In this document: positions 115-8,099 of the stretch, one piece after another
How the letters are laid out: every line of letters starts with the position of its first letter
Position numbering within the stretch: the stretch's first letter is position 1
NCBI RefSeq assembly: GCF_018139485.1
Contig: NZ_JAGSNF010000002.1
Coordinates: forward strand, 1-61,686
Direction of reading: 5' to 3'
DNA: 61,686 nucleotides
Source of the DNA: Phycicoccus avicenniae
GTDB lineage: Bacteria; Actinomycetota; Actinomycetes; Actinomycetales; Dermatophilaceae
Translations under genes and position numbers: made by a program
The notes under the pieces: model-generated
Databases searched by the model: none
What the model saw: the letters and a program-made list of their open reading frames with translations, nothing else
What the model was told of the DNA's origin: nothing

Positions 115-1278
115 ATGACGAGGACCGGACGGACCGGACTGTGGCTCGTGGGAGCCGGGGGGTCGGTGGCGAGCACCGTCGTGGCCGGGCTGGCTGCGAT
201 GCGAGTGGGCGCCGCCGGACCCGGCGGGGTGGTGACGGAGACGTCCGCGTTCGCCGGGGCCGGCCTCGTCGACACGGCCGACCTCGTGACCGGCGGGCAC
301 GACGTCCACGAGGTCTCGCTCACCAAGCGGGTCGAGGACCTCGCGACGGCCGGGGTCGTGCCGCACGACCTCGCGCGCCTCGTCGCCGCCGACCTCGACG
401 CCGCCTCCGAGCGGGTGCGTCCCGGGTACGCGGTGGGCGCGGAGGACCAGGGCGCGGCCGTGCGCCGGCTCGCCGAGGACCTGCGTGACTTCCGCGAGCG
501 GGAGGGTCTGGACCGGGTCGTCGTCGTCAACGTCTCCTCGACCGAGCCGCCGGTCGACGCGGCCGAGGTCCCGGCGGACGTCGCCGCGCTCGAGGCCGCC
601 TGGTCCCGGGGCGAGGCCCCGCTGCCGCCGTCGTCGGTCTACGCCGCCGCCGCGTTCACGGCCGGGTGCGCGTTCGTCGACTTCACGCCCTCCACCGGGG
701 CCCGGCTGCCGGTGCTCGGCGAGCTCGCGGCCCGGGCCGGTCTGCCGTGGGGCGGCAGCGACGGCAAGACGGGGGAGACGCTGCTGAAGTCCGTCCTCGC
801 CCCGATGTTCGCCCAGCGCGCGCTGCGGGTGCACTCGTGGAGCGGCACGAACCTCCTCGGCGGCGGTGACGGGGCGACCCTCGCCCGGCCGGACGCGTTC
901 GAGAGCAAGGCCCGCAGCAAGGCGGCCGGCGTCGGCGCGATGCTCGGCTACCCCGTCGAGGGCCCGATCCACATCGACAACGTCGCCGACCTCGGCGACT
1001 GGAAGACCGCGTGGGACCACATCACGTTCTCCGGCTTCCTCGGCACCCGGATGACGCTGCAGTTCACGTGGCAGGGCTGCGACTCCGCGCTCGCCGCGCC
1101 GCTCGTCGTCGACCTCGCCCGCCTCCTCGACCTCGCGATGCAGCGGGAGGAGTCGGGGGCGGTCCCCGCGCTCGGCTTCTTCTTCAAGGACCCCGTCGGG
1201 TCGGACGAGCACGCGCTCGCCGCGCAGTACGACGCCCTCTTGCGCTGGGTGCGCGGCGAGGGGTGGACCGGTCGATGA
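115..1278 (+). CDS. Inositol-3-phosphate synthase family protein (ebo-type cluster, gene 1)
   Basis: The 387-residue product resembles the NAD-dependent myo-inositol-1-phosphate synthase family, which isomerises glucose 6-phosphate to inositol 3-phosphate by an intramolecular aldol reaction. A Rossmann glycine motif GAGGS lies at residues 13-17. The family signature GSDGKTGET (about 214-222) is followed by LLKS and a GGGDG loop near 250. The ATG is preceded by a GAGGAG ribosome site. The stop overlaps the next ATG as ATGA. It is the first gene of an eight-gene overlapping operon with ebo genes and occupies the role of a carbocycle-forming enzyme, which eboD fills in cyanobacterial clusters. 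Family is secure; whether the substrate is glucose 6-phosphate or another sugar phosphate is open. Confidence 0.85.
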   Translation: MTRTGRTGLWLVGAGGSVASTVVAGLAAMRVGAAGPGGVVTETSAFAGAGLVDTADLVTGGHDVHEVSLTKRVEDLATAGVVPHDLARLVAADLDAASERVRPGYAVGAEDQGAAVRRLAEDLRDFREREGLDRVVVVNVSSTEPPVDAAEVPADVAALEAAWSRGEAPLPPSSVYAAAAFTAGCAFVDFTPSTGARLPVLGELAARAGLPWGGSDGKTGETLLKSVLAPMFAQRALRVHSWSGTNLLGGGDGATLARPDAFESKARSKAAGVGAMLGYPVEGPIHIDNVADLGDWKTAWDHITFSGFLGTRMTLQFTWQGCDSALAAPLVVDLARLLDLAMQREESGAVPALGFFFKDPVGSDEHALAAQYDALLRWVRGEGWTGR

Positions 1279-2180
1279 CGGCGTTCGCCGACATCGCCGA
1301 GCTCGTCCGGGCCCCCGCCGCACTCACCGTCCCGGGCGACTCGCTCGCGGGGGCCGCCGCCGCGGGCTGGCCCGCCGGGCCGCGCACGGCGGTGCTCCCC
1401 GTCGCCTCGGCCTGCCTCTACTGGGCCGGGATGGCCCTCAACGACTGGGCCGACCGGGACCTCGACGCCGACGAGCGTCCGGAGCGCCCGATCCCCTCGG
1501 GGCGGGTGTCGCCGGACCTCGCGCTCGGGGTCGCCGGTGGCCTGAGCGCCGCCGGGGTCGCCCTCGCGGCGGTCGGGGGAGGTCCCCGGGCCGCGGCGCT
1601 CGCGACGGTGCTCACCGGGGCGGTCTGGGCCTACGACCTCTCCGCGAAGCAGGGCCCGTTCAGCACCGCGACGATGGCGTCGACGCGAGGCCTGGACGTC
1701 CTCCTCGGGGCGGCGGCCGGGGGTCGGGACGGCCTGCGACGGGCCGCGCTGCCGGCCGCGGTCCTCACCGCGCACACGGCCGCGGTCACGGCGCTGAGCC
1801 GGGGCGAGGTCCACGGGACGACCCACGCCGTCGCCCGGGGGGCGCTCGCGACGACGGCCGCCGTGACGAGCGCCGTCCCGGCGCTCGCCGCGTGGACCGC
1901 CCGCACGGGTCCGGGCGGCGCGCTCGCGCGGACCGGCTCCTGTCTCGGGGCGCTCGCCGGTGCGGCCGTCTACGGGCGGTCCGTCGGCGGCGCCCAGCAG
2001 CGGGTGGTCGCCGACCCGGGGGCCGGTCCGGCGCGTGCCGCGACGGTCGCGGGCATCCACGGGATGGTCCCGCTCCAGGGCGGCCTCCTCGCCGCGGTGG
2101 GGGCGGCCCCGGTCGCCGGGGCGCTCGCCGGGGCGACGTGGGCCGCGCGGTCCGTCCTGCGCCGCGGGAGCCCGACGTGA
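1275..2180 (+). CDS. eboC: EboC-like UbiA family prenyltransferase (SCO3242 type)
   Basis: A 301-residue hydrophobic protein with the first aspartate-rich motif of UbiA prenyltransferases, N56-D-x-x-D60-x-D-x-D64, which binds Mg-diphosphate of a prenyl donor. Several Ala/Val/Leu/Gly-rich membrane helices follow. UbiA proteins join a polyprenyl chain to an aromatic or other acceptor in the membrane. Actinobacterial proteins of this type are known as SCO3242-family prenyltransferases and correspond to EboC. Overlaps of four bases occur on both sides (ATGA at 1275, GTGA at 2177), indicating translational coupling. The acceptor is unknown; the neighbouring cyclase makes a cyclitol-like acceptor possible, as inference only. 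Confidence 0.82.
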   Translation: MTAFADIAELVRAPAALTVPGDSLAGAAAAGWPAGPRTAVLPVASACLYWAGMALNDWADRDLDADERPERPIPSGRVSPDLALGVAGGLSAAGVALAAVGGGPRAAALATVLTGAVWAYDLSAKQGPFSTATMASTRGLDVLLGAAAGGRDGLRRAALPAAVLTAHTAAVTALSRGEVHGTTHAVARGALATTAAVTSAVPALAAWTARTGPGGALARTGSCLGALAGAAVYGRSVGGAQQRVVADPGAGPARAATVAGIHGMVPLQGGLLAAVGAAPVAGALAGATWAARSVLRRGSPT

Positions 2181-7095: not shown

Positions 7096-8099
7096 CCCGA
7101 CCGATCACCCTCTTCACCGGCCAGTGGGCGGACCTGCCCTTCGAGGAGGTGTGCCGGCTGGCCTCCTCGTGGGGCTACGACGGCCTCGAGATCGCCTGCT
7201 GGGGCGACCACCTCGACCCGTGGCGGGCCGCGGAGGACGACGCGTACGTGCAGTCCAAGCTCGACATGCTCGAGAGGTACGACCTCAAGGTGTGGGCGAT
7301 CTCGAACCACCTCAAGGGCCAGGCCGTCTGCGACGACCCGATCGACGCCCGCCACGAGGCGATCCTGCCCCCGAAGGTCTGGGGCGACGGCGACCCCGAG
7401 GGCGTCCGGCAGCGCGCCGCCGAGGAGATGACGATGACCGCCCGGGCCGCCCAGCGGCTCGGGGTGAAGACCGTCATCGGCTTCACCGGGTCCTCGATCT
7501 GGAAGTACGTCGCGATGTTCCCGCCGGTGTCGCAGGAGCTCGTCGACGCGGGGTACCAGGACTTCGCCGACCGGTGGAACCCGATCCTCGACGTCTTCGA
7601 CGAGTGCGGCGTGCGGTTCGCTCACGAGGTGCACCCGTCGGAGATCGCCTACGACTACTGGACGACCGTCCGCACGCTCGAGGCCATCGGGCACCGCGAG
7701 GCCTTCGGGCTCAACTGGGACCCGAGCCACTTCGTGTGGCAGGACCTGGACCCGGTGAGCTTCATCTGGGACTTCAAGGACCGGATCTACCACGTCGACT
7801 GCAAGGACGCGAAGAAGCAGGTCGGCAACGGCCGCAACGGGCGGATGGGCAGCCACCTCGCGTGGGCCGACCCGCGGCGGGGCTGGGACTTCGTCTCGAC
7901 CGGCCACGGCGACGTCCCGTGGGAGCAGTGCTTCCGGATGCTCAACACGATCGGCTACGACGGCCCCATCTCCGTCGAGTGGGAGGACGCCGGGATGGAC
8001 CGGCTGCTCGGCGCGCCCGAGGCGCTCGAGTTCGTCCGCCGCTACGCCTTCGACCCGCCCGAGGCCGCCTTCGACGCGGCGTTCGCCACGCGCGACTGA
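7092..8099 (+). CDS. Sugar phosphate isomerase/epimerase, last gene of the ebo-type operon
   Basis: A 335-residue TIM-barrel protein of the xylose-isomerase-like superfamily. It begins [14 protein letters not shown], followed by [15 protein letters not shown]. The metal-binding strands appear as [23 protein letters not shown] and the C-terminal STGHGDVPW and VEWEDAG. Close family members occur next to inositol and 3-keto-sugar catabolic genes. It is longer than, and clearly different from, the barrel at 2177-3037. The ATG overlaps the eboF stop, and a 17-bp hairpin follows the gene. It may process the cyclitol intermediate; alternatively it works with the DUF1080-containing secreted protein downstream. 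Neither role is demonstrated. Confidence 0.75.

Follow-up and report, generated by a model that had tools for sequence, protein, structure and literature searches.

Which gene could provide the opening step of the ebo pathway in an operon that holds no EboD? The question is raised by eight genes at one end of the Phycicoccus avicenniae DNA analyzed here (the window: all 61,686 nucleotides of contig NZ_JAGSNF010000002.1), which form an operon on the + strand at positions 115-8099 and begin with a member of the myo-inositol-1(3)-phosphate synthase (MIPS) family. The initial annotation, made from the letters alone, had described an ebo-type operon with EboA, EboB, EboE, EboF and EboC-like genes, led by MIPS and without EboD, and this observation was confirmed at the same place and on the same strand. 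Furthermore, sequence comparison indicates that EboD's position in the operon is very probably taken by a pair of proteins, MIPS and a xylose-isomerase-like TIM barrel (TIM1). As a whole, the operon is best explained as encoding an ebo pathway of a MIPS type, a reading that we consider probable, if with some reserve.

The ebo operon has been defined by six genes (PMC5133447; this and the other papers cited by number were available in part, and our statements on them apply to the available text). In the window, EboA, EboB, EboE and EboF are clustered as in that definition, and EboB and EboF are homologous to the proteins at corresponding places in annotated ebo clusters; EboD and an EboC-subfamily UbiA enzyme are lacking. 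The EboA domain protein and EboE passed their curated models (NF035938 and NF035939, Table 1), and the concern that these two genes belong to other families was not borne out, while the UbiA enzyme fell short of the EboC model (NF035940, 109 bits versus a cut-off of 250) and passed the SCO3242-family model instead. A longer EboA family model was not reached (81 bits versus a cut-off of 320). In comparison with the operon described from eustigmatophyte plastids, Bacteroidetes and cyanobacteria (PMC5133447), the window thus shares clustered EboA, EboB, EboE and EboF with a UbiA-superfamily enzyme, but has MIPS and TIM1 where EboD is missing and an SCO3242-family enzyme in place of EboC. We propose to define the MIPS-type variant by MIPS, TIM1, EboB, EboF and the UbiA enzyme without EboD, which is the composition found in the window.

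The window MIPS carries both Pfam domains of its family and the catalytic Lys/Asn/Asp set. Its closest solved relative is the MIPS of Archaeoglobus fulgidus (1u1i), with which it has the family and the catalytic residues in common, at a score of only 193 bits. All 88 ebo-linked MIPS proteins, and all 11 others compared, share residues N246, L248, D252, K265, K269, K297, D323 and K358; D301 is kept in 85 of the 88. The eight invariant positions match N255, K278 and K367 of the Archaeoglobus enzyme, letters changed in PDB entries 3qw2, 3qvw and 3qvx, together with L257, D261, K274, K306 and D332, for which catalytic roles are presumed. An altered active site was sought and not found; with this intact set, the window MIPS looks catalytically active. 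A second, housekeeping-type MIPS is encoded on another contig of the same genome and shows 29% identity to the window MIPS over the matched part. The model of the actinobacterial Ino1 equivalog of mycothiol synthesis (TIGR03450) gave the window MIPS 43 bits versus a cut-off of 638.

EboD itself was sought with a profile (A2) built from five EboDs, four further EboDs being kept out as controls. The window genome, with an estimated completeness of 99.94%, contains a single PF01761 match, which scored 149-150 bits with this profile versus 537-561 bits for the four left-out EboDs. Because the stretch around this match also encodes a shikimate-kinase-like frame, we read it as AroB-like and not as EboD. 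No part of the genome gave an EboD-level score, and the suspicion that an eboD homologue lies elsewhere was thus not borne out. In the remaining 17 EboA-positive genomes, the profile reached at most 190 bits, and one genome (82% complete) had no match at all. In the survey of EboA with MIPS or EboD that the initial annotation had called for, MIPS was found in 82 of 103 actinobacterial loci and EboD in none (all queries, E 0.001). Conversely, neither MIPS nor TIM1 was detected in the nine EboD-type loci that were fetched (E 0.001), and no locus among those examined holds both MIPS and EboD. The functional replacement that had been proposed agrees with the mutual exclusion of the two enzymes, but one gene has not simply been exchanged for another, because 81 of the 82 MIPS loci also have TIM1 and because the UbiA enzyme is of the SCO3242 family. 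Two features of EboD-type clusters were seen along the way. The Salipiger EboD (L045:7073-8974) has 633 residues, its EboD part beginning near position 248 and being preceded by a lengthy additional N-terminal stretch, and a gene given as a "ferritin-like protein" follows a hypothetical gene beside the clusters of a betaproteobacterium (L047:4987-6069) and a member of the Bacteroidota (L048:3835-5103).

The pattern is general rather than peculiar to Phycicoccus. In a phylum sample of 396 genomes, EboA was found in 18 (19 places, 9 families) and ebo-type MIPS, called at 327 bits or more with the next best MIPS at 242, in 17, every one of them EboA-positive (Fisher p 6e-29, uncorrected for kinship). 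The sample includes three further genomes from the window's own family, and these have neither EboA nor ebo-type MIPS. The order MIPS-EboC-TIM1-EboA-EboB-EboE-EboF was kept in 16 of the 18 other EboA loci that were fetched. The 103 loci consist of these 18, the window, four loci from plasmids and 80 genome loci, the top-ranked of 587 related ones; the 80 are all actinobacterial, mostly from Streptomyces, and closely related because of the way in which they were selected. Counting the window, 82 have MIPS and 21 do not; in 15 of the latter the contig stops short of the MIPS position, whereas the other six have space for the gene. TIM1 was matched in 96 of the 103 and an EboC-like enzyme in 83 (E 0.001), the latter missing, for example, from L057, L096, L105 and L107. 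An earlier statement that TIM1 always accompanies MIPS was dropped on recount, L052 being the exception.

Plasmid records extended the comparison to other phyla. EboE was found in 48 plasmid records, 32 actinobacterial and 16 not. EboD-level matches (at least 301 bits, among the best 60 of 116 records) were seen in 15 of the 16 non-actinobacterial records and in none of the 32 actinobacterial ones, of which 28 had MIPS matches of at least 223 bits. The sixteenth non-actinobacterial record, an unannotated Gemmatirosa plasmid, matched MIPS, TIM1, EboC-like, EboF, EboB and EboE proteins, with no EboD or EboA match on the plasmid, which was searched without the chromosome. In the trees, its EboB clusters with two EboD-type rows from Deinococcus (100/100) and its EboF falls within an EboD-type clade (99/100), while its MIPS branches outside those of Actinobacteria and haloarchaea (97/91, midpoint root), which points to a swap outside the Actinobacteria. 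A reduced cluster was found on three haloarchaeal plasmids (L146, L148 and L149), each with MIPS, EboF-like and EboB-like proteins (best matches at 42-48% identity), a UbiA enzyme and two TIM1-like proteins; EboA and EboE had no match in these three clusters. Another haloarchaeon, Halomarina, has a MIPS outside any such cluster. Taken together, these occurrences establish the MIPS-type ebo operon as a recurrent variant.

The remaining genes bear on what the pathway might make. The predicted model of TIM1 (predicted local distance difference test score, pLDDT, 93.7) is nearest in fold to D-tagatose 3-epimerase and UlaE (E near 1e-15), and Glu155, Asp186, His189, Asp216 and Glu253 are invariant in 34 aligned rows; residues of this kind bind metal in this fold. 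TIM1 and EboA are fused in a single reading frame in 4 of 93 loci, in agreement with the hybrid proteins already remarked in Actinobacteria (PMC5133447). The EboA model is all-helical (pLDDT 94.3) and matched no PDB structure at E 0.001 or better, and an EboA profile found nothing below E 0.09 among PDB sequences; a tetratricopeptide-repeat idea for EboA has been published (PMC6282210). The nearest solved relative of EboB is Archaeoglobus AF_1765 (3guw, 96 bits). From these parts we propose a tentative chemistry, which we hold a little short of probable. MIPS would convert glucose 6-phosphate to inositol 3-phosphate, as predicted from its full catalytic set, and TIM1, with its epimerase-like fold, could rearrange a keto form of the cyclitol made by MIPS. 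EboA may hold or modulate TIM1, a proposal that stems from the fusion of the two in certain species. The UbiA enzyme would attach a prenyl chain in the membrane, EboF would remove a phosphate or open a phosphodiester, and EboB and EboE would trim or rearrange the head group. The outcome would be a prenyl-bearing lipid derived from inositol and located at the membrane or beyond it. The isoprenoid-cyclitol idea as such has already been published for the EboD type (PMC5133447).

The prenylation step could involve another acceptor. If the UbiA enzyme prenylated an aromatic or other molecule, the inositol branch would join later or never and no prenyl-cyclitol would form. The EboC-type enzyme Ubi-297 was studied for aromatic prenylation, with preferential farnesylation reported (PMC9235831), and aromatic prenyltransferase and methyltransferase genes adjoin one Streptomyces plasmid copy of the operon. 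However, the conserved core holds no gene for making an aromatic compound. The window enzyme, which has an NDxxDxxxD motif from residue 56, includes archaeal geranylgeranylglycerol-phosphate enzymes among its weak NCBIfam matches (54 bits), and these prenylate a polyol phosphate. We therefore regard an aromatic acceptor as unlikely.

Several findings weigh against a MIPS-type ebo pathway as we read it. The product of MIPS carries a phosphate and is no ketone, so TIM1 would have no obvious substrate unless an oxidation step intervenes. In the available ebo literature, a measured enzyme activity was found for the prenyltransferase Ubi-297 alone (PMC9235831), and the EboD side of our comparison consists of 16 plasmid records and published surveys. 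MIPS and TIM1 also occur together without ebo matches in six other genomes and one Methylobacterium plasmid, and the pair is thus not specific to ebo. L052 (Herbidospora, 7391-11143) has MIPS directly before EboA, EboB and EboE with no TIM1, EboC or EboF match, and six loci have upstream room but no MIPS (L029, L039, L055, L058, L114 and L121). The genome of L114, a draft assembly, has only a housekeeping-type MIPS match. The same holds for the genome of L121, a locus that also lacks EboC and TIM1 and shows no N gap. Such loci would suit an arrangement in which MIPS only enlarges an inositol phosphate pool for a linked use, the ebo product is built from a different precursor and EboD has disappeared without a substitute: L029, L055, L058, L114 and L039 retain most other genes, each of their genomes holds at least one other MIPS match, and L121 and its genome are devoid of any ebo-type MIPS. 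On the other hand, an ebo-type MIPS is encoded outside the operon in the genomes of L029, L055 and L058, though not in that of L114; 16 of the 18 fetched EboA loci preserve a single order of MIPS, the UbiA gene and TIM1; and Gemmatirosa and the haloarchaea show the MIPS and TIM1 pairing without EboD. On this balance, a mere supply role is improbable, and the paired replacement of EboD by MIPS and TIM1 remains our preferred reading.

Some unusual loci deserve mention in their own right. EboB and EboF of L029 and L055 form a separate clade of their own. Genome G279, which supports the view of MIPS and TIM1 as a unit, has an ebo operon without either of them and, elsewhere, an adjacent MIPS-TIM1 pair from the sister clade; its sequence may be imperfect, because EboE is broken by a frame change. 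In stretches L132-L137 and L150, which gave no ebo matches, a MIPS of the sister type (38-42% identity) occurs with a Gfo/Idh match and, within a few kilobases, a homologue of TIM1, and L132 additionally has HD, methyltransferase, YcaO, GT4 and PIG-L genes; they possibly make another inositol-derived product.

Table 1. Genes of the window operon and its downstream neighbor, with the matches that identify them.
Feature	Position	Strand	Support
MIPS, myo-inositol-1(3)-phosphate synthase family, ebo-linked clade	115..1278	+	PF07994 165 bits, PF01658 109 bits
EboC-like UbiA prenyltransferase, SCO3242 family	1275..2180	+	NF045897 329 bits (cut-off 260)
TIM1, xylose-isomerase-like TIM barrel, regular MIPS partner	2177..3037	+	PF01261 130 bits; predicted fold
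EboA domain protein, all-helical in model	3034..3618	+	NF035938 163 bits (cut-off 50)
EboB, TatD-like metal hydrolase	3615..4484	+	PF01026 53 bits
EboE, TIM barrel	4484..5668	+	NF035939 418 bits (cut-off 250)
EboF, type I phosphodiesterase/nucleotide pyrophosphatase family	5665..7095	+	PF01663 219 bits
TIM2, 2-hydroxy-3-keto-glucal hydratase relative, probably flanking sugar module	7092..8099	+	2zds 579 bits, 8ro4 143.5 bits
2097-residue multidomain protein, two 3-keto-disaccharide hydrolase stretches; neighbor, not ebo	8372..14665	+	PF06439 227 bits; PA14, PKD, CBM domains

Neighboring genes of the operon overlap by 4 bp (EboB and EboE by 1 bp), including the start of TIM2 over the end of EboF, and a gap of 272 bp separates TIM2 from the large multidomain protein. 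The genes named in the initial annotation were all found, but it had omitted TIM1 and TIM2, the latter although it lies inside the limits given for the operon. TIM2 was considered as an ebo gene and is unlikely to be one: among its named relatives, a 2-hydroxy-3-keto-glucal hydratase (8ro4) is the closest, and depending on the genome TIM2 is found on one side of the ebo block or on the other. More likely, it is a putative hydratase of a neighboring 3-keto-glycoside module. A putative hydratase of this kind works with a Gfo oxidoreductase in the Agrobacterium 3-keto-glycoside operon (OGE, HYD, Gfo; PMC10628242), whose hydratase and oxidoreductase resemble TIM2 and the Gfo/Idh neighbors; no ebo genes are described there in the available text, and the likeness accounts for the neighbors but not for the ebo core. 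At the start of the window, MIPS is only 114 bp from the contig end and the upstream side falls outside. This end consists of GC-rich homopolymers, as does that of contig C8 of the same genome, which finishes with an ABC ATPase, a Gfo/Idh protein, a TIM barrel and a GSDH-type protein. The two homopolymer ends (L153 at the end of C8, and window positions 1-90) are 88% and 92% GC, respectively, and the C8 GSDH-type protein is 70% identical to the one preceding MIPS in Terrabacter. It is thus possible, if not proven, that C8 runs into the window and that the assembly broke within one locus.

This setting could suggest that the whole locus is catabolic, with the ebo genes, TIM2, the secreted proteins and Gfo/Idh degrading a glycoside and MIPS recycling carbon or making inositol as a side product. 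The relation of TIM2 to the hydratase of the Agrobacterium pathway (PMC10628242) and the gene content and similar homopolymers of the C8 end are in line with this idea, as is the frequency of the module: TIM2 was matched in 56, a related large protein in 64 and at least one of the two in 69 of the 103 loci (E 0.001; 57, 62 and 68 with other limits), counts that are lower bounds because the fetched flanks were limited. Parts of the module also occur in Gemmatirosa and Natronococcus. However, 34 of the 103 loci have neither gene within the fetched stretch, whose flanks were limited, and the annotation of seven of nine EboD-type loci shows no such module. A UbiA enzyme and a synthase suit biosynthesis better on general grounds, and the deletion phenotypes described in the available text of PMC6282210 concern product and traffic. 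A purely degradative locus therefore appears quite unlikely, and we retain a biosynthetic MIPS-type operon, which seems to be embedded in a 3-keto-glycoside locus that also encodes a GSDH-family dehydrogenase.

We take the GSDH family to be dependent on pyrroloquinoline quinone (PQQ). The best PqqE match in the window genome scored 109 bits versus a cut-off of 381, and PqqE passed in two of the 18 EboA-positive genomes, the window's not among them. Related genes were noted beside other clusters: a GSDH-cupredoxin protein near that of Natronococcus, a PQQ-type dehydrogenase adjoining the EboD-type ebo genes of Salipiger, and a ScyD/ScyE family gene directly before MIPS on two Streptomyces plasmids (L043:2963-4162 and L152:3221-4423), with a multicopper oxidase beyond EboF. 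It is conceivable, although we think it very doubtful, that ebo clusters make an exported prenyl-cyclitol that serves secreted beta-propeller proteins as a cofactor or carries electrons for them. If so, the scytonemin defect of ebo mutants would reflect failed periplasmic oxidation and not failed traffic.

No description of a MIPS-type ebo operon was found in the literature searched, a search in which subscription papers were mostly not covered, and the term "inositol" is absent from the available text of PMC5133447, PMC6282210 and PMC9235831. Two of the genes have been named earlier: SCO3243 and SCO3242 of Streptomyces coelicolor, listed with the CDA cluster, are called myo-inositol phosphate synthase and transferase (PMC3610822), with no link to ebo in the available text. 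Our comparison is by these two gene names only, and the second gene of the window passes the SCO3242-family model.

The distribution of the variant suggests that two genes can be swapped together to change the opening step of the ebo pathway, with EboB and EboF retained. This would separate a core of EboB, EboF and the UbiA enzyme from EboA and EboE, which can be absent, having no match in the three haloarchaeal clusters. For a set of genes spread across many phyla, this offers a new point of entry: the EboD substrate in print is a guess, whereas the reaction of MIPS is well defined and makes inositol a concrete guess at the building block of the pathway. Since cultivable Streptomyces, plasmids and haloarchaea all carry MIPS-type operons, the question of the ebo product becomes directly testable by inositol labelling.

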